Position numbers and translations under genes: made by a program
In this document: positions 3,105 to 17,523 of the stretch, piece after piece
How the letters are laid out: each line of letters opens with the position of its first letter
Numbering within the stretch: the first letter of the stretch is position 1
Notes under the pieces: generated by a model
Databases searched by the model: none
Told to the model about the DNA's origin: nothing
The model's input: the letters and a program-made list of their open reading frames with translations, nothing else
Source: a virus
Length of the DNA: 23,558 nucleotides
Reading direction: 5' to 3' (one strand)
IMG/VR virus record: IMGVR_UViG_3300037493_000686
Location: 1-23,558 of that record

Positions 3105-3177
3105 TTTCGTTTAATTTAGTTAGAAATACAGTTAACTTAATAATGTTTTCTTCTTTTGGTTTATAGTTCTTTCTCAT
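3082..3177 (-). CDS. Possible 31-aa basic peptide
   Basis: A short frame starting at ATG 3177 overlaps the stop of the connector gene (ATGA) and ends 23 bases inside the next gene. The product (MRKNYKPKEENIIKLTVFLT...) is Lys-rich. It fills what would otherwise be a 69-base gap, and the two overlaps match the style of other small genes here. No family recognised; it could be chance. Confidence 0.35.
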   Translation of the reverse strand: MRKNYKPKEENIIKLTVFLTKLNENGGSKDK

Positions 3178-3908
3178 AAGTACCAGCCTGAAAAGTTTAT
3201 ATCTCTATCTGGGTTAACATCTCCATTACTATTTGTGTTATACTCAGGATATAAGTTGTTATTAAAACACATATAATCAACAAATCTTTTAGTATAGTTT
3301 TCAGCAATGCTGCGTTCTTTTTCAACTAAGAAATCTACTTCCTCTTTACTTACCGATTCGCTATTTTCTGAACCATGCTTATAAACTCCTTTGTTAGCAA
3401 CTGTATAAGCTGCCCAAGGTAAATACTCAACCATTGCCCAATGTATCAGCATAGGCTTTACATATGTAACTAAAAGGTTATTATAGTCCGTTGGTATTGT
3501 GTAAATTGAAGCTATTGTAACTGCTCCATTTGTACCACCTAAAACAGTTGCAGTATCTCCAACTTTGTAATTCGTACCAGCTGTGTTTATTGTGGCGTTT
3601 GTAATTAACCCACCAGCCGCTGTAATATTCAATTTTAAACCCGTTCCCGTTGCGCTTGTTGTATTTATAGCTGTTCCCGTAGTATATCCAGTTCCTTGGT
3701 TACTTACTGTTATTGCAGTTGGTATTCCTGAATTTGCTAAAATAACTTCAGATTGTAATTTTTCAAACAAATCAGTACCTAAGTAGTTTTGAATATGAAT
3801 ATCTTGAGAAATCTTAATGTATTGAACAAATTTATCTACATCAACATTACCGTTAAGTGATGTGCTTTTAGTTAAATCTTCTCTAGTTATGAATAGTGCT
3901 TGTGCCAT
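3174..3908 (-). CDS. Head-tail connector (adaptor) protein with an inserted beta domain
   Basis: A 244-aa protein. Residues 1-60 (LFITREDLTK, then IKISQDIHIQNYLGTDLFEK) and 137-215 (TYVKPMLIHWAMVEYLPWAA, then ENYTKRFVDYM) form a helical adaptor type that I recall following the portal in Bacteroidota phages; such proteins form the ring between portal and tail. Residues about 62-136 do not fit the helical core. They are Gly/Thr/Asn-rich with two similar units (NQGTGYTTG and TAGTNYKVGD) and look like a beta domain inserted into a loop. The ATG overlaps the portal stop (TAATG), which supports a head-completion role. The C-terminal 25 residues are Asn/Asp-rich. Confidence 0.65.
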   Translation of the reverse strand: MAQALFITREDLTKSTSLNGNVDVDKFVQYIKISQDIHIQNYLGTDLFEKLQSEVILANSGIPTAITVSNQGTGYTTGTAINTTSATGTGLKLNITAAGGLITNATINTAGTNYKVGDTATVLGGTNGAVTIASIYTIPTDYNNLLVTYVKPMLIHWAMVEYLPWAAYTVANKGVYKHGSENSESVSKEEVDFLVEKERSIAENYTKRFVDYMCFNNNLYPEYNTNSNGDVNPDRDINFSGWYL

Positions 3909-5668
3909 TATGCTACGTCTGAGGGTAAATTAGTATTATTAGGGCTAAATCCTTTCAATGGCATATCGTTAGGCTTCATAGCAACCTCTTTAGGGTTTCT
4001 AACAACATAACCAAACTTCTCAGCTTTGTTAGTTGATATAGTTGGAGCGTTAGGACTTTTAACATCAATAGATTTACTTGCGCTAACGTAAGTCTTACGA
4101 ACCCATTTGTGACCACATCTAGGACCGCCTTTGTATTTGAATATATCGTAAGTGTCTGTTCCAAATTCTCCAAAACCTTCGTTAACTACAGTCTCACTCA
4201 TCATTGCAATATCTTCCTTGCGATATAACTTGTTACGTTGCATCATTAATTTACAAAAGTCACGCTCAGGTGATTTGTTACCATCGTACACATATCTTAC
4301 CTTAAAGTAAAATCCATCAATCTCTTTGTCTTGGTTTGACTTTTGATTAGGTGAAGCAACACCTGAGTTAACAAATTCCCAAACCTTACTAAGTAAAGAT
4401 TGCTTAGGCTTGAAATATTCCTTTAATTGATTATCAAAATCTTCTTCATTATCATAATCAACCTCTCTTTCATCTATTAACTCCCAACCTTCCAGGTCTT
4501 CATCTTCACCAAAGCGTGACAAAACGTCACTAAGTTTATCATGTGAACTCATCGCAACTTCCTCAGACTTTTGCTCATCCGCTTCAATGTCTTCAAATAA
4601 GTTTAAACGTCTAAAGAATAAGTCTAAGCTAATATTGTTAAATGCTAATATCTCAGCAATAGCGTCTAAGTGAATATCTTGTTGTGGTCTGATAACTGTA
4701 TTGTGGAAATACTTAGCAGCTACTTCTATTTCATCAGCATTAGAACTGAAACCTTGACCGTCAGGAGAAATTCCTACAAGCATAGGTGAAGTAATACAAT
4801 GACCTACTAATATTTTATTTCTACACTCAGTCGATAAGTAGTTGTAATGATCGGGTGCATCGTTTAATGGAATATCGTCTACCGTTGTTTTCTGCTCCTG
4901 GTTATTGTTAAATGATACAATTACTTTCTGACCTCTAGCACCTGTTAACTTACCAAGTACTTTCTTAGCTTGGATCTTTTGTTGTTCCTCAGTTGGTACA
5001 CCATTATTAAAGTTGACTACCTTAGTACCACTAAATCCGTTATCCACGTCATTAATCAAATACTCAGAAATACGTTCTTCAAGAATACAATAGTCTAAGC
5101 ATGGTTCATAAGCAACAGCTGAGAAATATTTTCTACCAACTGACTGCGCTCCAAATACAAGTAATTCAATACCCTCGTTAGAAGTTCCGAAAGATGGAAT
5201 TCGTTTAGGTGGAAATGCTTTAGTATCACTCCAATTATCAGAATAATAATAACCCGTAATATTACCATCTTTATCGCACTTTTCAGGTCTAATTAAATTG
5301 ATAGGCATATATTTTACCTTAACAATCTTATTGTGCGCTTTATTGTAAATTAATTGATATGCTCCTTGTCCTAAATGATATAAATTATCTCCAGCAGCTC
5401 TTAAGTCATGAGGTCTAAACAATGCTAACATTTGAGCAAAGTCATTAGGTCGCTTGTTTGCATTCTTAGCATACAATCCTCTACCATACATTAAACGTGC
5501 AATGTTGTTGATAATTGAACCGTTTGTTGTAGAGTTACGTCTGCGATCAATCAACCATGTATAATAGTCATTTTCAGTTCCGTATTCAACCCATTTATCT
5601 CTACCGTCTTCTATAATCTCAGGTTGAGTATAAGCTGATAACTCTAAAATATGTGTGTTATTAGTCAT
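3908..5668 (-). CDS. Portal protein with C-terminal Mu-F-like head morphogenesis domain
   Basis: A 586-aa protein. Residues ~25-360 resemble a phage portal: an N-terminal WVEYGTENDYYTWLIDR segment, INNIARLMYGRGLYA, the wing/stem segment RNKILVGHCITSPMLVGISPDG, and a helical FHNTVIRPQQDIHLDAIAEIL. Portals form the dodecameric ring through which DNA enters the capsid. Residues ~365-450 are an acidic linker. Residues ~455-565 form a second domain with FKVRYVYDG, SPERDFCKLM, a GGPRCGHKWVRKTY motif (C518, H520) and ISTNKAEKFGYVVRNPKE. This resembles the minor head (Mu gpF / SPP1 gp7) C-terminal domain, usually a separate gene. The start overlaps the 109-aa gene by 8 bases. Portal call fairly secure; the fused domain is a visual match. 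Confidence 0.75.
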   Translation of the reverse strand: MTNNTHILELSAYTQPEIIEDGRDKWVEYGTENDYYTWLIDRRRNSTTNGSIINNIARLMYGRGLYAKNANKRPNDFAQMLALFRPHDLRAAGDNLYHLGQGAYQLIYNKAHNKIVKVKYMPINLIRPEKCDKDGNITGYYYSDNWSDTKAFPPKRIPSFGTSNEGIELLVFGAQSVGRKYFSAVAYEPCLDYCILEERISEYLINDVDNGFSGTKVVNFNNGVPTEEQQKIQAKKVLGKLTGARGQKVIVSFNNNQEQKTTVDDIPLNDAPDHYNYLSTECRNKILVGHCITSPMLVGISPDGQGFSSNADEIEVAAKYFHNTVIRPQQDIHLDAIAEILAFNNISLDLFFRRLNLFEDIEADEQKSEEVAMSSHDKLSDVLSRFGEDEDLEGWELIDEREVDYDNEEDFDNQLKEYFKPKQSLLSKVWEFVNSGVASPNQKSNQDKEIDGFYFKVRYVYDGNKSPERDFCKLMMQRNKLYRKEDIAMMSETVVNEGFGEFGTDTYDIFKYKGGPRCGHKWVRKTYVSASKSIDVKSPNAPTISTNKAEKFGYVVRNPKEVAMKPNDMPLKGFSPNNTNLPSDVA

Positions 5669-5990
5669 AAACTATAAATTCGTTATCCGTTGTGTTCTGA
5701 ACATACTCACCGTTATTTATTGTGTATGTTGTAGCAGATTGATTAGTGCAAAATATCTTATCTTTATAAACTACATTAGCACCATCCAAGACTGTTAAGG
5801 TATAAGTGTGACCTTCTACTAATGCAATGATTTTAGAAATAACCGCATAGTAATCTAACTGAGTTATCGTAATGCTGTAAGTAATAGAATCTCTAGTAGT
5901 TTCATCGGTAATAATCATGCTATCCGCTGCAAATTGTCGAGGGATAATTTTAAAGGTTTGCGATGTAGCCGACTGTTGTAATACTATCAT
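5661..5990 (-). CDS. Small beta-rich virion protein, unknown function
   Basis: A 109-aa protein with alternating hydrophobic strands (SITYSITITQLDYYAVIS, then GHTYTLTVLDGANVVYKD and TYTINNGEYVQNTTDN), suggesting a single Ig-like or beta-sandwich domain. No signal peptide. It lies between a terminator-like hairpin and the portal gene, whose start overlaps its end. A decoration, head-fibre or connector-associated role is plausible, but I cannot assign a family. Confidence 0.5.
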   Translation of the reverse strand: MIVLQQSATSQTFKIIPRQFAADSMIITDETTRDSITYSITITQLDYYAVISKIIALVEGHTYTLTVLDGANVVYKDKIFCTNQSATTYTINNGEYVQNTTDNEFIVYD

Positions 5991-6077: not shown

Positions 6078-6620
6078 TTAAGATCCTAATACGATAGTTA
6101 CTCCAGCAGTAGTTAACAAAGCATCAGTTGTAGCTTCCATAAAGTTAGCTGGTACTGGCTCCATTCCTACAAGTGTCAAAGTGTAACCGCTTAAGTCACC
6201 CATTGCAGCACCTGTTGTAATAGTACCACCCGTTACATCCATCCCACGCTTTAGCCCACACATGAAATAGTTAGAGTTATTATCTACAACGATAACAGTA
6301 GGGTTTCCGTAAGCTAACAATTTCACTTGTTTGTGAGTAGCAATATCTTGCTTAGTCAACGTCAAGTTCAAAGTTTGCTCAAAGTAAGTTGTACCCGTAT
6401 CTCTTGAAGATACAATAGTTTGTTCAAATGAACTAGCAGAACCTTTAAGGTCATACTTATAACCGCTAGGAGTTCCCGTTACGGTTTCAATAACATCAGT
6501 ATTAGTTGAATCATAAGTTACTCCAGTCATGTCCCCTTGGTTCATGAAGAAAATAGCTTTCAATCCTCCTACTGTGTCTTTACATGGGAGCAATCTCCCT
6601 AAACTTAAATCACAAGGCAT
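6078..6620 (-). CDS. Probable major tail (tube) protein
   Basis: A 180-aa protein starting MPCDLSLGRLLPCKDTVGGL. It is mostly beta (YFEQTLNLTLTKQDIATHKQ, VKLLAYGNPTVIVVDNNSNY, GDLSGYTLTLVGMEPVPANF), consistent with the double beta-sandwich of tail-tube proteins, and I recall similar proteins in Bacteroidota phages. The gene directly follows the major capsid gene and is bracketed by two terminator-like hairpins, an arrangement expected for a high-copy structural protein. C4 and C13 are two nearby cysteines near the N-terminus. The leader is ATAAACGAAATG. An alternative is a second head decoration protein. Confidence 0.55.
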   Translation of the reverse strand: MPCDLSLGRLLPCKDTVGGLKAIFFMNQGDMTGVTYDSTNTDVIETVTGTPSGYKYDLKGSASSFEQTIVSSRDTGTTYFEQTLNLTLTKQDIATHKQVKLLAYGNPTVIVVDNNSNYFMCGLKRGMDVTGGTITTGAAMGDLSGYTLTLVGMEPVPANFMEATTDALLTTAGVTIVLGS

Positions 6621-6690: not shown

Positions 6691-7644
6691 TTAGTTAGCT
6701 GAGTTAGTGATACCGTAAGTAACGATGTCAGTAACATTACCGTAGTTAACAGCACCTGTAAACTTCATGATAAAACGTACATTATCAGAACCGTCAATAT
6801 CCTCCATGTCGATAACCTTAACAGCTTGGTGGTCATTCAACAAACCAGTACCGAAATACAAGTTATCCTTGTAAGTAGCAATAGCAACTGTTGAAGTCAT
6901 ACCCTTGCACATTACCAAAGGAACACCATCAACTGAAACTGAACCATCAGTATACCACATTGAACCCATTGCGTTAACACCGTTTGCACCAAGTCCTGAT
7001 GTACCGAATCCACCTAATGATTGGATGTAAGCCTTAAAGATAGCTTGTGAACAGTAGATAGCAAATCCTTCGTAACCCCAAAGACGATCAGGAGTAGCAG
7101 CGATAATCTTACGCAATTCAACTAAGATAGTACCAGCAGCAACAGCAGCACCAGCAACTTCTTGAGCAGCAGGTAAAGCAGCATCAGCAGCTAACAACGT
7201 TTCAAATCCATCAAACTCACCAGCGTTAGCGTTAACACCTGACCAGATAGTAGTTTCCATCTTAGAAGCAACTTTAGCAGCAACGTGAGCAATTAAGAAA
7301 TCAGCAAAGTTCTTAGGTAGTACATCAGTAGCTGAATAACCCATAGATACCGCTTCCCAATCAGAACGGAAATCAGCCTTACAAAGTTGTAAATTTACCT
7401 TTAATGATTCAGGTTGTAGAGTACGCTCAGTTAACGTAACTGTAGACGTTGGATCAAAGTCACATCCACCATTCTTAACGATATCGTTAACTGAGATGTT
7501 CTTTAATGTTTCACGATACTTAATGTTTGGTTTAACAGTGATTAAGTTCGATTCAATTGTGTTAGCTGACAAAATCGCAGCAGCGATATACTTACCTGCA
7601 AATTCTCCAGCGTAAGTTGTTGTCATGTTAGTTTGTGTAGCCAT
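6691..7644 (-). CDS. Major capsid protein
   Basis: A 317-aa protein of normal size for a cleaved or HK97-like shell protein. Diagnostic parts are the N-terminal TTTYAGEFAGKYIAAAILSA, an early extended strand (ITVKPNIKYRETLKNISVND), an FRSDWEAVSMGYSATDVLPK segment, a long helix FLIAHVAAKVASKMETTIWS like the spine helix of HK97-fold shells, and a C-terminal strand FIMKFTGAVNYGNVTDIVTY. The gene follows the scaffold-like and decoration genes and is followed by a strong hairpin. Codons are more regular (GCA, GCT, GTA, ACA) than in neighbours, as expected for a highly expressed gene. Position and fold-like pattern agree; I did not confirm it by search. Confidence 0.85.
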   Translation of the reverse strand: MATQTNMTTTYAGEFAGKYIAAAILSANTIESNLITVKPNIKYRETLKNISVNDIVKNGGCDFDPTSTVTLTERTLQPESLKVNLQLCKADFRSDWEAVSMGYSATDVLPKNFADFLIAHVAAKVASKMETTIWSGVNANAGEFDGFETLLAADAALPAAQEVAGAAVAAGTILVELRKIIAATPDRLWGYEGFAIYCSQAIFKAYIQSLGGFGTSGLGANGVNAMGSMWYTDGSVSVDGVPLVMCKGMTSTVAIATYKDNLYFGTGLLNDHQAVKVIDMEDIDGSDNVRFIMKFTGAVNYGNVTDIVTYGITNSAN

Positions 7645-9686: not shown

Positions 9687-11513
9687 TTATAGCGTTGCTG
9701 TTTTAATTTGGTTTCTATCTAATGATTGTGCAGTAGTTACAGCACCACTCACAACATAGGCTTGAACAGGGTTGTTATTTAATCCCTCCATTAACTGATT
9801 GGTGTTAGAATTACCCACTATGTTAAAGTTAGCTGGATTACTAGCTGAAGGTATAGAACCACCACCGCCTCCACCACCTGAAGCACCACCGCCACCGCCT
9901 TGGAATTTAGTTTTAGATATACTTGCTACTCTAACAAGTCCTTGAGCAATAGCTATACCAGCAGCAATAGCAGCACGTATTGGAGCATCAGGAGTTGTTA
10001 TAGCCATTTGTGAAGCGTAAGCTGATTGAGCAGCTTGATAAGTTTCAATTGTTGTAGTAGCTATTGCAGCAGCTTTTTTTACATTAAACGCTTTCTTTTG
10101 TGAAGCTTCAGAATCTCCAGCAAACAAATCAGCAATTTCACCAAGTGTAGATAGTGCTGTTTTTGCCATGTTTAGTTCAGCGTCAAGTTGTGCTTTCTTA
10201 GCTGCCTTAGCTTTTTCAGCATCTTCTTTACGTTTAGCTTCTTTTATTTTATTCTCAGCATCGGCTTGAGTTTTCAATACATCTAAGTCGATAGCATTGT
10301 TCTCTATTGCTATTGCTCTTTTAGTTTGCAAGAAAGTTGTTTCTAATGCTAACTTACCAGCGTTAACTTCAGCTATTGCGTCAAGTTCTTCTTTACGTTT
10401 CTTAGCCGCTTCGTCATTACCCTTTTTAGCTTCAGTATTCAAACTTATCTGAGCAGTCTTTAAATCGTTAATTGCATCCTCACTCGCTTCTATTTCTTGG
10501 TTTCGTGTAGTAAGTTGAGCGTTTGTTGCTTGTAGTTGTTTCTCAGTTTCTTTATCAATCTCTTTAATCTGAGCTAAAGCATCACCAATTTTCTTAATGT
10601 TAAGTGATTGAAACACTCCAATCTTATCATCAACAATAGCTTGTTTAGCTGCTAGGATTTGCTGCTGTAGTTTCTCCTTAGTTTGTTGTTGTGAAGCCTT
10701 TAGTTTTTCTTTCTCGCTGTTAAGTATTCGAACCTCTGCCTTATCTTGTTCGAGTGATATCTCTAAAGTCTTAATCTTTTCAGCATTGATTTCCTTTTGT
10801 ACCTTAGAAGCATCCTCACCCATTGCAATACGTCTAGCAGCTTCACGATCTAAATCTTTTAGTATCTTATCGTTTATCTTGTTTTGCTGTTGTGCAGTCT
10901 TTTCTAATTGCTTACGGTAGTTTTCACTTGCCTCTTTTGATTTATTAAAAGCATCGATAACCTCAGCGTTTGCCTTAGTAGCAAAATACATAGCTGCTGC
11001 ACTTAGAGCAATAAAAGCTGTAACTATTAAACCGATTGGATTAGACATTAATACAGCATTCAAAGCCTTAAACGCTGGGATTGATTCACGTACTGATTGA
11101 ACACCTTGAGCAATAGCCATAGCTGAGTTAACCTTAAGTAACGCTTCCTCGACCTTAGCACTCTCAGCTCCAAATGCACCCATAACACCCTGAGCAAGTT
11201 CAAACCCACCTGATAAACCTTGAATAGAACCACCTAGCTTTTGTGACATCGTTCCACTCATTCCATCGACAGCCATATCAACGTCAACGATGACTTTCTT
11301 CATCTTACCAATCTGCGCAGCTAACTGAGTAAACTCTTGTGTGCCTTGCTGACCAGCTGCAGCCATTTCATATAGTTGGTCTTCTAACTCACCGATGCGA
11401 CCTGTTAATGGTTGAACCTCGCCATAAACATCCTCGAATGAAGCCTCTAATCTATTTAAAGATTTTACACCTTCCTCAGTTTGTACATCAACAACTATTG
11501 TTTTCTTTTCCAT
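9687..11513 (-). CDS. Tape measure protein
   Basis: A 608-aa protein with the layout of tape measures. Residues 1-130 are helical with a hydrophilic N-terminus (KKTIVVDVQTEEGVKSLNRL). A hydrophobic segment lies at about 158-178 (NPIGLIVTAFIALSAAAMYF). A long Lys/Glu/Ala/Gln coiled coil spans about 190-460. A second Ala/Ile-rich segment is near 505-530. A poly-Gly stretch lies at about 538-552, with an Asn-rich C-terminus. Tape measures set tail length and pass into the host membrane with the DNA. Using roughly 0.15 nm per residue (general knowledge), a tail near 90 nm would be expected, implying a siphovirus-like particle. The start overlaps the 51-aa ORF. Confidence 0.88.
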   Translation of the reverse strand: MEKKTIVVDVQTEEGVKSLNRLEASFEDVYGEVQPLTGRIGELEDQLYEMAAAGQQGTQEFTQLAAQIGKMKKVIVDVDMAVDGMSGTMSQKLGGSIQGLSGGFELAQGVMGAFGAESAKVEEALLKVNSAMAIAQGVQSVRESIPAFKALNAVLMSNPIGLIVTAFIALSAAAMYFATKANAEVIDAFNKSKEASENYRKQLEKTAQQQNKINDKILKDLDREAARRIAMGEDASKVQKEINAEKIKTLEISLEQDKAEVRILNSEKEKLKASQQQTKEKLQQQILAAKQAIVDDKIGVFQSLNIKKIGDALAQIKEIDKETEKQLQATNAQLTTRNQEIEASEDAINDLKTAQISLNTEAKKGNDEAAKKRKEELDAIAEVNAGKLALETTFLQTKRAIAIENNAIDLDVLKTQADAENKIKEAKRKEDAEKAKAAKKAQLDAELNMAKTALSTLGEIADLFAGDSEASQKKAFNVKKAAAIATTTIETYQAAQSAYASQMAITTPDAPIRAAIAAGIAIAQGLVRVASISKTKFQGGGGGASGGGGGGGSIPSASNPANFNIVGNSNTNQLMEGLNNNPVQAYVVSGAVTTAQSLDRNQIKTATL

Positions 11514-14007: not shown

Positions 14008-15041
14008 TACATTACGTTGTTTATAATATCATTAGCATAATCAAACTCCATTGAGTAGTTAATCATTTTATCGTTAATATTCTTAACTTTCTCAATTGAC
14101 TTAGTTTTAATCTTAACTGGTTTGTTGTCTAATAATATAACCTCAGAAAGCATTAACTGTTGTATAGCTTCGGAGTTATTTTCTTCAACCCAACCTGTGT
14201 TAATCTTAACACTCGCATTTCCGTTAATATTCATAAACTTATTGTAACCTACCGAAGTGTTGTATATCGGTGAATCAGGCATTAGCTTCCAATCAGAACC
14301 ACTTACTTCTATGTTGTCACGCTTTGCCTTGAAGAATATCAATCTTTGCCACACTCCAAACTTGTTAACGAAGTCGCATTCGATTGGTGTATATCTTGGT
14401 TCGCATTGAGCTGTGAATGTAAACGTAGCTAATGTAACTGAACCCGATGTATTGAATATGCTTAACGTGTTACCCGTTGCGATGTAAGAAGTATGAACCA
14501 TTGGAACTTGCTTAATTATTCCTGACAAAGCCACGTTTGTAGTTGCTCCCGTTCCTAACTGCGTGTACCTTGCTTCTAATGTAGTTAATGAATTTACAAA
14601 CACCGATACACTACCACCGTTATCATTTTCTTTAACATAGAAATCACCAGCTGATAAGAATACATTATTGTAAATAGGATTTGAACCCTCCTCGAAATAA
14701 CCGTAACCATCAAAGCAAATGAACTCACTTGTAGCATTAAGTACTCCATTAAGATAAGTCTTAGCTGTGCAATAACAATAGTTAGCAACAGGAACAACCG
14801 CTTGAGATGCTATTTCAGTAAAGGAAGTATGCTCGATATAATTACGTACATAAGGTGATACATTGAAATAAACCGTTGTTGCCAATGTAGAAGGTATTGG
14901 TTTACTAAGTGTTAATGTTGGAGTACCAGGAATACTTGCTGGTGAGTTCCAAATATATAAATCACATCTTACTGAATCGTTAGCTACTCCCGTAACTGAC
15001 ACACTTCTAGGTGAACGTGCAAATAATTTTTCTAGTGCCAT
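14007..15041 (-). CDS. Tail protein, possibly distal tail-like
   Basis: A 344-aa protein, mostly beta: LEKLFARSPRSVSVTGVAND, then CDLYIWNSPASIPGTPTLTL, TVYFNVSPYVRNYIEH, and a C-terminal half with LPMH-free strands ending in VKIKTKSIEKVKNINDKMIN then YSMEFDYANDIINNV. It lies between the tail-completion-like gene and the 786-aa tail-tip candidate, with TAATG overlaps on both sides, so it is almost certainly virion-associated and co-translated with them. A distal-tail (Dit-like) adaptor is one reading; I cannot name a family from sequence alone. Confidence 0.5.
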   Translation of the reverse strand: MALEKLFARSPRSVSVTGVANDSVRCDLYIWNSPASIPGTPTLTLSKPIPSTLATTVYFNVSPYVRNYIEHTSFTEIASQAVVPVANYCYCTAKTYLNGVLNATSEFICFDGYGYFEEGSNPIYNNVFLSAGDFYVKENDNGGSVSVFVNSLTTLEARYTQLGTGATTNVALSGIIKQVPMVHTSYIATGNTLSIFNTSGSVTLATFTFTAQCEPRYTPIECDFVNKFGVWQRLIFFKAKRDNIEVSGSDWKLMPDSPIYNTSVGYNKFMNINGNASVKINTGWVEENNSEAIQQLMLSEVILLDNKPVKIKTKSIEKVKNINDKMINYSMEFDYANDIINNVM

Positions 15042-15547
15042 TAATCATATTTCTTTAAAGTGTATTTTAAAAACTCATCTATATCTAAACCAAATGCTTC
15101 TATAATATCATCACCTAATCTTTTATAAGCTAATTCAAAAGGTCGGGTAAAGAAAAGACTTGGTTTGATTCCATTATTGAACACTGACCTTGCGATAAGG
15201 TAGCTTAATGATTTATTAGTGATGAATCGACCTCTCTTATCTCTACCCTTAATGCCTTTTCTTTTTATCCACGCTTCAAATACTTGAGCAGGTGGTTGTT
15301 TATTCGTATAACTAAACGGTGTATTGTACTTCTTCTTTACTCCGCTTACCCCTTGGTCTTGAAACTCACCATAGATAGGCATCTCAAAACCTAATTCAAA
15401 GCTGTTCTTACTAACCTTAAGAAAGCTGTTCATGTCATTGTATAAAGTCTTGGATGCGTTCTTTTTATTCCTAGTAAGGTTTTTCCTTGCCTCGGTAATA
15501 ACGTGCTTTCTAAAAGCGTTTAACTCATCCTCTACATTAGATAACAT
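15041..15547 (-). CDS. HK97 gp10-like tail completion protein
   Basis: A 168-aa basic protein. It has an N-terminal helical part (EDELNAFRKHVITEARKNLT), a central YGEFQDQGVSG loop, and a C-terminal SYLIARSVFNNGIKPSLFFT then RPFELAYKRLGDDII segment. The order 'Y-x-E-F ... G-I-x-P-x-x-F' resembles HK97 gp10 / tail completion proteins that join the head to the tail. Its ATG overlaps the stop of the -1 frame of the chaperone gene (ATGTTATCTAA), so its translation probably depends on ribosomes coming from that frame. It is therefore likely coupled to the rate of frameshifting. Confidence 0.5.
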   Translation of the reverse strand: MLSNVEDELNAFRKHVITEARKNLTRNKKNASKTLYNDMNSFLKVSKNSFELGFEMPIYGEFQDQGVSGVKKKYNTPFSYTNKQPPAQVFEAWIKRKGIKGRDKRGRFITNKSLSYLIARSVFNNGIKPSLFFTRPFELAYKRLGDDIIEAFGLDIDEFLKYTLKKYD

Positions 15548-16285
15548 TTCTTTTCTTTAATCGTTTTATCTCTAATTTATTCTTTTGGTCTTCAAACACC
15601 AGGAAGTTTAAACAAGCTAAGACTGGTAGCTGTGTAACTCTTTCAAACTCTGTAAGGTTTCCTCTAGCGATTGCGTATATAGATTGATACCATCCCCATC
15701 TTTTGTTAAACTGTTCTTCTTCTGAGTAGCCATCTTGATCCCCTCCGTTTCCAAATAATGAAGGGTAGCCATCAGTAATTCGTTGCTTAAATTGTAAAAA
15801 AAAACCATTGCGCCCATTACAACGTCAAGTGGAGCATATTGCATAACCTCCGAATAAGTAGCAGTGCCTTCGTATGGTTCAATCTCATACTTATCGCCTT
15901 TAGTCTTGACAATCGGTCTAAACATAACAGCCATTGCTTTGTGCATATTATCCCACTCACCGATGTTTGTTTCTAAATCGATGTACTCACCGAAGCTCAT
16001 ATCTTCAAGCGATGGAATAAAACCAAACTCCTTGCCACCTAATTCAAATCGATGTATAAATTTCTTTTCTTCGTTAAACATTCCGTTAAGATGATCAACA
16101 GTTTCATTGATTGACTTAGCGTTAAAGTAAAGCACCTGAGATAGTTTAATCTTGCAGAATATACTAATCATCTTTTGACTAATAAACTCCTCTGAATCTT
16201 CCTTATCTACCAATCGCATAAACACCTGGTATTGTTCAAGTGTTAAGTCATTAAGTTTAGACGGTACAGTTATCTCTACATTCAT
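15537..16285 (-). CDS. Tail assembly chaperone, long form made by -1 frameshift (249 aa)
   Basis: Reading the zero frame to 15797 (163 codons, ending VFF) and then shifting back one base at the T9 run opens an 86-codon frame that ends at TAA 15539-15537. The added part begins LQFKQRITDGYPSLFGNGGD and contains QFNKRWGWYQSIYAIARGNL then TEFERVTQLPVLACLNFLVF and EDQKNKLEIKRLKKR. This aromatic/helical segment has the look of the conserved second domain of siphovirus tail assembly chaperones (lambda gpGT-like), which binds the tape measure and tube protein. No start codon is needed in that frame. The frame fills the space before the next gene and overlaps its ATG. The frame is directly visible; use of the frameshift is inferred. 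Confidence 0.85.
15617..16285 (-). CDS. Tail assembly chaperone, short form (222 aa)
   Basis: The zero-frame protein starts at ATG 16285, 32 bases after the large terminase stop. The N-terminal part (VPSKLNDLTLEQYQVFMRLV, then EFISQKMISIFCKIKLSQVL, and FELGGKEFGFIPSLEDMSFG EYIDLETN) is a helical domain I recall from tail assembly chaperones. Residues 105-163 include MHKAMAVMFRPIVKTKGDKY and DVVMGAMVFFYNLS. The last 59 residues after the slippery site (from YNLSNELL) are what ribosomes make when they do not shift. By analogy with lambda gpG and gpGT, the short form should be more abundant and both are needed for tail assembly. Its place before the gp10-like and tail genes fits. Confidence 0.8.
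   Translation of the reverse strand: MNVEITVPSKLNDLTLEQYQVFMRLVDKEDSEEFISQKMISIFCKIKLSQVLYFNAKSINETVDHLNGMFNEEKKFIHRFELGGKEFGFIPSLEDMSFGEYIDLETNIGEWDNMHKAMAVMFRPIVKTKGDKYEIEPYEGTATYSEVMQYAPLDVVMGAMVFFYNLSNELLMATLHYLETEGIKMATQKKNSLTKDGDGINLYTQSLEETLQSLKELHSYQS
15796..15804 (-). promoter_or_regulatory. Programmed -1 frameshift slippery run (U9)
   Basis: The minus-strand RNA reads AUGGUUUUUUUUUACAAU. In the zero frame the codons are GUU UUU UUU UAC, so the standard X XXY YYZ heptamer U UUU UUU is present exactly in phase. After a -1 slip the next codon is UUA and the 86-codon frame opens. A stem downstream (CCCUUC with GGAGGG) starts about 34 bases away, too far to be a typical stimulator. The same run could also work by RNA polymerase slippage adding one U. 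Confidence 0.8.
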
Positions 16286-16317: not shown

Positions 16318-17523
16318 TTAATAGATAGCATAGCTTCCTCGGTTTGGATTCTCTAGTTGATATGTAACAGCATAGCGTATAGCATCAATCGCATGGTTAA
16401 AGTTATCTATGGGAGTTTTAGATTTCTTTTCTAGCCATGAATAGTTATTAAGTTCTTTGTGTAACTCTATGCTTTCAGGATCAATAACCAAATCGTAATC
16501 TTGTAGTATTGATATACCATGAGTAACCGAACCCTGACCTTTGACAGCTTCAAGTATATTTAACCCCTTAGCTCTAAGTTCATTTATTAAACGTGGTTCA
16601 GCACTATCAGCTATTGTTAAACTATCACCAGCTACACGCTTGTTAATTTCGTATAAGTCTGAGGTGGTTAAACCCGTCTGATATAAATGCAGCTTAATGT
16701 ATATCTTCTTGTTTGCTCTATCTATTGAAGTTTCAACCAATGTAGATGGATCATTGCTAAAACCGTAATCTTGACCGAATACATTTGTACCAGTATTAAC
16801 GAACTCACCGATAGACCAATTGGTAAAGATAACACCTTCAGCTTTGTCAAGCCAACCACCCATGATTTGATGCTTGAACTTCTCAGGTCTATGTGATTTG
16901 ATTTGTTCTATTTGGTCAAGGAATGATTTGCTTAGATTCTCAATGTTATCCAAGTAAGTTGTGTGAATATAAGTAGTATCGTTTCTCGTTAGTGTTGAAC
17001 CTTCTTGAATACCTTTAGATTCAAAGAAACGATTGTAAATAAAATGCTCTTTTGTTGTCGGGTTAAGTATAAGAATTACCCTATTTTGTTTTACCTTGTG
17101 ACGTATAGATAGATCAATCTTATCAAATGTATCTTCATCGGTTAACTCCTCAGCTTCATCAAGCACCCAAGTAGTTACACCTTGTAACGATTTGAGATTA
17201 GCAGTCTGAGTTCCTGAGCTGGTCTTAATACCTTTGAAGATAATCTTACTACCCGTTACAGTATTAATAATCTCATCTTTAGTTATGACAAAATTAGACT
17301 GCATTTCCATTAACTCAATCTTTTCAATGAACTCAGGAATGATTGAGATGTGAGCAGAAACTAAAGTATATCTGGTAAATAGTATAACGTGACCTTGTTC
17401 GTAAGTTAGAAGCAATAGAAATGAGGTTACACTAAAGGATTTAGAACTACCCCTACCTCCAGTTACTATGAAATATCTACTATCAGAACCGAGATTCTTG
17501 TACTTATCATTTAGAGTTACCAA
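16318..17523 (-). CDS. terL: Terminase large subunit
   Basis: A 401-aa two-domain DNA packaging motor. The ATPase domain shows Walker A GGRGSSKS at 22-29, Walker B TTWVLDEAEE at 117-126 (D122, E123) and the coupling motif LNPT near 153-156. The C-terminal RNase H-like nuclease domain has D252 in FGQDYGF, D306 in TIADSAEP and D380 in NHAIDAIRYA. It matches the PBSX/Terminase_3 type and is complete, with normal length. It cuts concatemers and drives DNA into the prohead through the portal. Its start overlaps the small terminase gene by 17 bases. The next gene is the tail chaperone, not the portal, which is unusual. Confidence 0.96.
   Translation of the reverse strand: MVTLNDKYKNLGSDSRYFIVTGGRGSSKSFSVTSFLLLLTYEQGHVILFTRYTLVSAHISIIPEFIEKIELMEMQSNFVITKDEIINTVTGSKIIFKGIKTSSGTQTANLKSLQGVTTWVLDEAEELTDEDTFDKIDLSIRHKVKQNRVILILNPTTKEHFIYNRFFESKGIQEGSTLTRNDTTYIHTTYLDNIENLSKSFLDQIEQIKSHRPEKFKHQIMGGWLDKAEGVIFTNWSIGEFVNTGTNVFGQDYGFSNDPSTLVETSIDRANKKIYIKLHLYQTGLTTSDLYEINKRVAGDSLTIADSAEPRLINELRAKGLNILEAVKGQGSVTHGISILQDYDLVIDPESIELHKELNNYSWLEKKSKTPIDNFNHAIDAIRYAVTYQLENPNRGSYAIY

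Follow-up and report, generated by a model that had tools for sequence, protein, structure and literature searches.

A conserved run of nine T links two reading frames in a family of Bacteroidota phage genes that probably encode tail assembly chaperones

The window, by which we mean the whole stretch of DNA analysed, is the entire record of an uncultured virus (23,558 bases). All the features described in this paragraph lie on its minus strand. Directly downstream of the gene for the terminase large subunit (16318 to 17523) is an open reading frame of 222 codons (15617 to 16285) containing a run of nine T (15796 to 15804; U9 in the mRNA), the sole A/T run of eight or more in the 23.6 kb window. 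The slippery heptamer T_TTT_TTT (15797 to 15803) lies in phase within this run, the 0-frame codons being GTT TTT TTT TAC. The -1 frame (15537 to 15803) opens with FFL, reads FFLQFKQRITDGYPSLF...RWGWYQSIYAIARGNL... and continues for 86 codons past the two phenylalanines (FF) to NVI and a TAA stop at 15539-15537, 11 bases inside the next gene (15041 to 15547; ATG at 15547), which encodes a 168-residue protein of PHROG 29822 (unknown function). The transframe product would have 249 residues, the first 163 of them the same as in the 222-residue form. The gene thus comprises an N-domain common to both products (residues 1-163; PHROG 32199), a 59-residue 0-frame tail, and a -1 C-domain with a GWY motif (PHROG 38404), the last two being encoded over a dual-frame stretch at 15617 to 15796. 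The initial annotation had reported the same coordinates, U9 run, in-phase heptamer, -1 frame to 15537, overlap with the ATG and 249-residue product, all of which were obtained again when re-derived.

The PHROG 32199 profile matched the N part of the window protein at 4e-15 and 15 of 15 members of the family, and the PHROG 38404 profile matched 9 of the 13 members of the -1 alignment, with the window at 0.05 only. A probable tape measure gene (9687 to 11513, minus strand), identified by matches to the tape measure PHROGs 9483 and 1538, is separated from the recoded gene by three genes and begins 4.0 kb downstream of it. A probable tail tube protein is encoded at 6078 to 6620. A strong Shine-Dalgarno-like GGAGGGG at approximately 15731-15750 (minus strand) precedes an in-frame ATG in the 0-frame tail (MATQKKN...), an arrangement not seen in distant relatives. 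Elsewhere in the window, the DUF6712 protein encoded at 3174-3908 (minus strand) has an apparent insert at residues 58-137 or so that resembles repeats of unrelated virion proteins.

Homologues were sought in viral contigs with the following gene, the -1 domain and the N-domain, and four loci from bacterial genome assemblies, where copies were few, were included. The searches gave 498 two-domain loci, 362 of them unique once loci recovered by more than one scan, recognised by the sequence around the site, were counted a single time; the set still contains related phages. Most loci were found through N-domain patterns, which lie far from the T9 site and exclude it. More than 550 loci of the gene family were matched in one scan of IMG/VR, and the hosts of the family are Bacteroidota, its members being marine and freshwater phages with hundreds of relatives carrying T9 at the same spot. 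The in-phase T_TTT_TTT and the -1 offset of the two domains were present in all 362 unique loci. The run was T9 in 343 loci, T10 in 16, T11 in two and T8 in one, so that T9 is exact in 95% of loci, and the relative frame is -1 at every length from T8 to T11. When an earlier set of 283 loci was clustered at 60% protein identity, T9 was found in 62 of the 69 groups, and the most distant homologues were 26-30% identical to the window protein. The complete genomes of the cultured Nonlabens phages P12024S and P12024L, about 66% identical to the window in DNA where alignable, have T9 at the same position with the same -1 frame. On the sense strand of the homologous loci T9 is rare elsewhere (22 runs in 1.38 Mb). 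It had been proposed at the outset that homologues of the -1 frame be sought and aligned for the slippery run and an open second frame; they were found, both features are kept in all 362 unique loci, and neither of the outcomes named as refuting (no homologue, or a broken second frame) was obtained. Judged by this conservation, the T9 site is a real, long-conserved recoding site predicted to give a second product of 249 residues.

Some individual loci deserve mention. The sole T8 site (IMGVR_UViG_3300046534_000412, approximately 2498-2511) reads GGT TTT TTT TAC with the heptamer intact. Another locus (L310) was considered as a case of compensating run length and rejected, as the sequences with which it groups carry T10 and one additional codon. 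One Winogradskyella MAG contains two different copies of the gene (L102 and L103) on two short contigs, each about 40-45% identical to the window, which are probably two phages or prophages. Seven loci (L014-L020) have an extra gene between the recoded gene and the 168-residue gene, resembling the product of 1993-2655 in the window; since that gene lies far downstream in the window, the structural cluster has been rearranged between relatives.

Codon choice at the junction was determined in 277 aligned sequences and counted per sequence, not per independent event. The residue preceding FF is V in 231, L in 32, F in nine, I in four and G in one, and every V, L, F or I codon at this position takes its T-ending form (GTT in 231 of 231 for valine). 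Both junction phenylalanines are TTT in 277 of 277, compared with 74% TTT for phenylalanine and 38% GTT for valine elsewhere in the gene. At the protein level, V, L, I or F precedes FF in 99.6% of sequences, a constancy no greater than at other hydrophobic columns, and the -1 residue following FF is L or F in 98%.

The -1 frame is strongly conserved, with G37, W38 and Y39 of its domain invariant, and in this respect the initial view of it as a functional frame was sound; it had overlooked that the 0-frame tail running over the same DNA is also under selection. As a null model the -1 proteins were kept and the codons redrawn from the usage of the gene family. Per 50 codons, 2.08 stops were expected in the 0-frame tail and 0.05 were observed, with none in 271 of 277 loci, and the third frame, used as a control, showed 5.23 against 5.42 expected. 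Amino acid conservation of the 0-frame tail exceeded that of the redrawn sequences with z of 29.6 for codons 4-20 and 24.0 for codons 21-58, and the excess was 0.2 past the 0-frame stop of the window. The z of the third frame also rose inside the overlap (9-10), as expected because the nucleotides there are held by two frames. In the window alone, the length of the 0-frame tail (61 codons from FF) had a p of 0.04 relative to redrawn sequences. The near absence of stops and the conservation of amino acids indicate that some 60 codons serve two frames, the last 59 residues of the 222-residue form and the C-domain of the 249-residue form both being selected, as far as sequence comparison can tell, from the same DNA. 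A dual-selected overlap of this size appears unusually long for such genes. AF2 models (mean pLDDT 82 for the 222-residue protein and 79 for the -1 domain) predict the 0-frame tail as a long helix plus a second helix and the -1 domain as five helices.

A structural search among viral proteins led to Flavobacterium phage 6H and from there to a family of 270-301-residue proteins found in the Duneviridae (Flavobacterium phages 2A, 23T and laban6-1; Cellulophaga phage Ingeline) and a few other phages. The three genes read (2A, laban6-1 and Ingeline) each form one uninterrupted ORF whose junction carries no slippery run. In hhalign the transframe product matched these three with 97% probability (E 9e-11) over 223 columns that start at the N-terminus, cross the FF junction and extend into the -1 domain. 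This end-to-end alignment through FF indicates that the long product also exists in one frame and that the position of the shift is right, and it adds to the original account of the gene, correct as to recoding, a counterpart that had been missed. In the Duneviridae the long form is apparently the sole product. In phage 6H itself (KC959568, approximately 10340-10430) the homologue AGN89393 lies in pieces in different frames; the gene is one ORF in the near-identical 2A, and 6H was for that reason rejected as a second type of frameshift, the comparison with 2A pointing either to a record with a sequencing error or to a gene that is broken. A Duneviridae-type single-frame protein (25.6% identity, E 2e-13) is also present at 4953-5777 of Microcystis phage Mea-Yong924-1, which is recorded as a cyanobacterial phage, so that either its host label or gene transfer is of interest.

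An indel from sequencing or assembly in the homopolymer, or decay of a gene that truly has one frame, could give the same two frames, since homopolymers are error-prone and the Duneviridae have one unbroken frame. This reading is refuted by the heptamer and -1 offset of 362 of 362 loci: the arrangement recurs unchanged in numerous samples and in the genomes of two cultured phages, the -1 relation holds at any run length from T8 to T11 and the 0-frame tail is selected, and we regard the reading as practically impossible. The -1 frame might instead be a separate gene, started on its own through coupling or re-initiation, and P12024S and P12024L do have a -1-frame ATG at the 0-frame stop. However, over its first 30 codons the -1 frame lacks ATG in 152 of 155 loci and lacks ATG, GTG and TTG in 85 of 155, the conserved -1 residues start right at FF, and the fused protein is one ORF elsewhere. 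In the loci checked the -1 frame is closed by an upstream stop 1 to 56 codons before the site, which together with the lack of an early ATG indicates that in most members it does not stand as an independent gene. An independent start was accordingly rejected, and separate genes are very improbable. In P12024L and P12024S the ORFs _41 and _39 (7457-7624) are annotated from an internal ATG and correspond to the final part of the preceding gene's -1 frame. Automatic annotation had been expected to report the 222-residue form alone; in these cultured relatives the -1 frame is annotated, but as a separate ORF.

The protein pair is probably a tail assembly chaperone of the gpG/gpGT kind, with binding of the tape measure protein by the common N-domain and recruitment of tail-tube subunits by the -1 domain as the likely division of labour. 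At the sequence level the gene has one start and two products, the -1 shift falling near the end of the first ORF, with a conserved in-phase heptamer at the junction in all 362 unique loci. Among about 60 virus records, Pfam PF10109 (Phage_TAC_7) matched three, each at residues 10-70 or so of this gene (E 5e-6, 9e-4 and 1e-3), all under the curated cut-off of 25 bits. A BFVD entry named tail assembly chaperone gave a weak fold match (E 0.04), no solved structure matched the N-domain or the -1 domain, nothing in Pfam and NCBIfam exceeded its cut-off for the family, and PHROGs 32199, 38404 and 25418 are listed as 'unknown function'. Comparison by hhalign of the family with a small P2 gpE set and with Mu gp41 was negative. 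The gene follows that of the terminase and does not lie between those of the major tail protein and the tape measure protein. The name tail assembly chaperone given by the initial annotation thus agrees with the two-product arrangement and, weakly, with the PF10109 and BFVD matches; the hhalign comparison with P2 gpE and the distance from the tape measure gene speak against it.

Two points of interpretation carry realistic alternatives, namely which machine slips and what the proteins do. In the reading that we prefer, most translation would stay in the 0 frame and give the 222-residue protein, and a fraction would shift one base back at T9 to give the 249-residue protein, which would share residues 1-163 and end in a conserved C-domain of its own; the tRNA-Phe molecules occupying the P and A sites would re-pair on U_UUU_UUU, as on U_UUU_UUG in P2 E/E+E'. 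Alternatively, RNA polymerase may add one U (or drop two) on T9; part of the mRNA would then carry U10 and give the long protein without a ribosomal shift, the junction reading ...VFFFLQFK in place of ...VFFLQFK. In favour of such programmed transcriptional slippage, all but one of the 362 unique loci have nine T or more although seven suffice for the ribosome, which weighs against a ribosomal slip; in many bacterial genomes selection against slippage can be discerned from a run length of nine (PMC1088944), and E. coli RNA polymerase slips on T7 and longer with a preference for poly(T) (PMC6260861). Moreover, in E. coli U_UUU_UUU performs poorly as a -1 site next to A_AAA_AAG (PMC5009743), other T9 runs in the loci are rare, and in one locus with C after the heptamer (L237) the run is lengthened to T11 on its 5' side. 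Transcriptional slippage also needs no RNA stimulator, and none conserved was found when downstream folds were scanned by sliding windows in the 69 clusters (mean z about 0 around the site). The claim that the site has no near stimulator consequently holds for the family, although in the window itself a stem of modest stability (-15.7 kcal/mol, z -1.6) is predicted 20 nt downstream. On the other hand, the two extra T are second-position bases of the hydrophobic codons flanking FF (V/L/I/F before it in frame 0, L/F after it in frame -1), and other hydrophobic columns are equally invariant; constraint on the amino acids is enough to account for both of these T, and length nine was rejected as proof of slippage by RNA polymerase. 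The T8 locus retains its heptamer, and no tail chaperone gene using transcriptional slippage was found in the open-licence literature. The -1 frameshift originally proposed is thus upheld as to the offset and the recoding site, and ribosome and RNA polymerase, which give the same frame, are not separated by these data. A ribosomal -1 slip is somewhat favoured, on precedent; slippage by RNA polymerase is a less probable explanation to be taken seriously, and the two may act together. As to function, the recoding may be real and the proteins have a different role in the morphogenesis of tail or head-tail, for instance as a neck or tail-tip scaffold, given that the gene follows the terminase gene and lies three genes from the tape measure gene, that neither chaperone families nor chaperone folds matched it significantly, and that its single-frame relatives appear to make the long form only. 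We consider this less likely than a chaperone role, since two-form recoding is the hallmark of tail chaperones across unrelated phages, every Phage_TAC_7 match below threshold is located on this gene, and the gene lies within the structural cluster, its homologue in Cellulophaga phage Ingeline being three genes ahead of the tape measure gene.

The full account, one start and two proteins that would arise by a ribosomal slip and form a tail chaperone pair, in which we infer the slipping machine, the product ratio and the chaperone function, has in our estimate an even chance of being right. Doubtful, in our opinion, is the joint proposal that the family makes its second product by RNA polymerase slippage on a T run fixed at nine by the length of the RNA-DNA hybrid, has drawn two C-terminal domains from the same 60 or so codons, and descends from an ancestor with the long form only, as in the Duneviridae. 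Whichever machine slips, a large unannotated phage gene family is predicted to make a second, conserved product at a recoding site so strongly conserved that T9 is exact in 95% of loci with proteins down to 26-30% identity, and with so bare a T9 a single reporter could tell ribosome from RNA polymerase. No description of the family, of a T9 site of exact length in a gene of this kind, of a selected overlap this long or of the single-frame counterpart in the Duneviridae was found in the open-licence literature, where absence counts as weak evidence.

Recoded tail genes with two products are already known as a kind. The lambda gpG/gpGT pair also consists of a short form and a -1 extended form from one gene, with another heptamer, G_GGA_AAG, and no sequence similarity was found between it and the window gene. 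The lambda pair, an abundant short form and a rare extended form, is needed for tail assembly (PMC5009743). Phage P2 makes E+E' by a -1 shift at TTTTTTG with no downstream structure (PMC3091744), and we confirmed this site in the P2 sequence. The all-U run with no near stimulator had been set apart initially from the gpG/gpGT arrangement; the P2 site shows that an almost all-U slippery site lacking a stimulator is not new for tail chaperones. P2 gpE and gpE+E' (PF10109) resemble the present pair as two tail proteins from one start by a -1 shift on a U run with no RNA structure, and differ in that the P2 overlap is short and the gene directly precedes the tape measure gene, whereas the window has T9 with T_TTT_TTT, a dual-coding overlap of about 60 codons, a position next to the terminase gene and no hhalign match to gpE. 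Programmed transcriptional slippage occurs on A/T runs of nine in Thermus dnaX and the Shigella mxiE and spa genes (PMC1088944, PMC5009743), which the window gene resembles in run length and lack of an RNA stimulator, and from which it differs in that its family always has an in-phase ribosomal heptamer as well. As in these slippage genes, an A/T homopolymer of about nine lies at the junction in 361 of 362 loci, which amino acid constraint plus the heptamer also explains. Genes 38+39 of Nonlabens phage P12024S and 40+41 of P12024L (PHROG 32199 and 38404) are direct homologues with the same T9 and the same -1 frame, annotated there as two unrelated hypothetical ORFs. Finally, the Duneviridae protein of PHROG 25418 has the same order of N-domain and C-domain as the window product, aligned across FF, in one frame and with no 0-frame short form, whereas the window and all 362 loci need the -1 shift, and it offers a natural comparison for the gain or loss of two-product genes.
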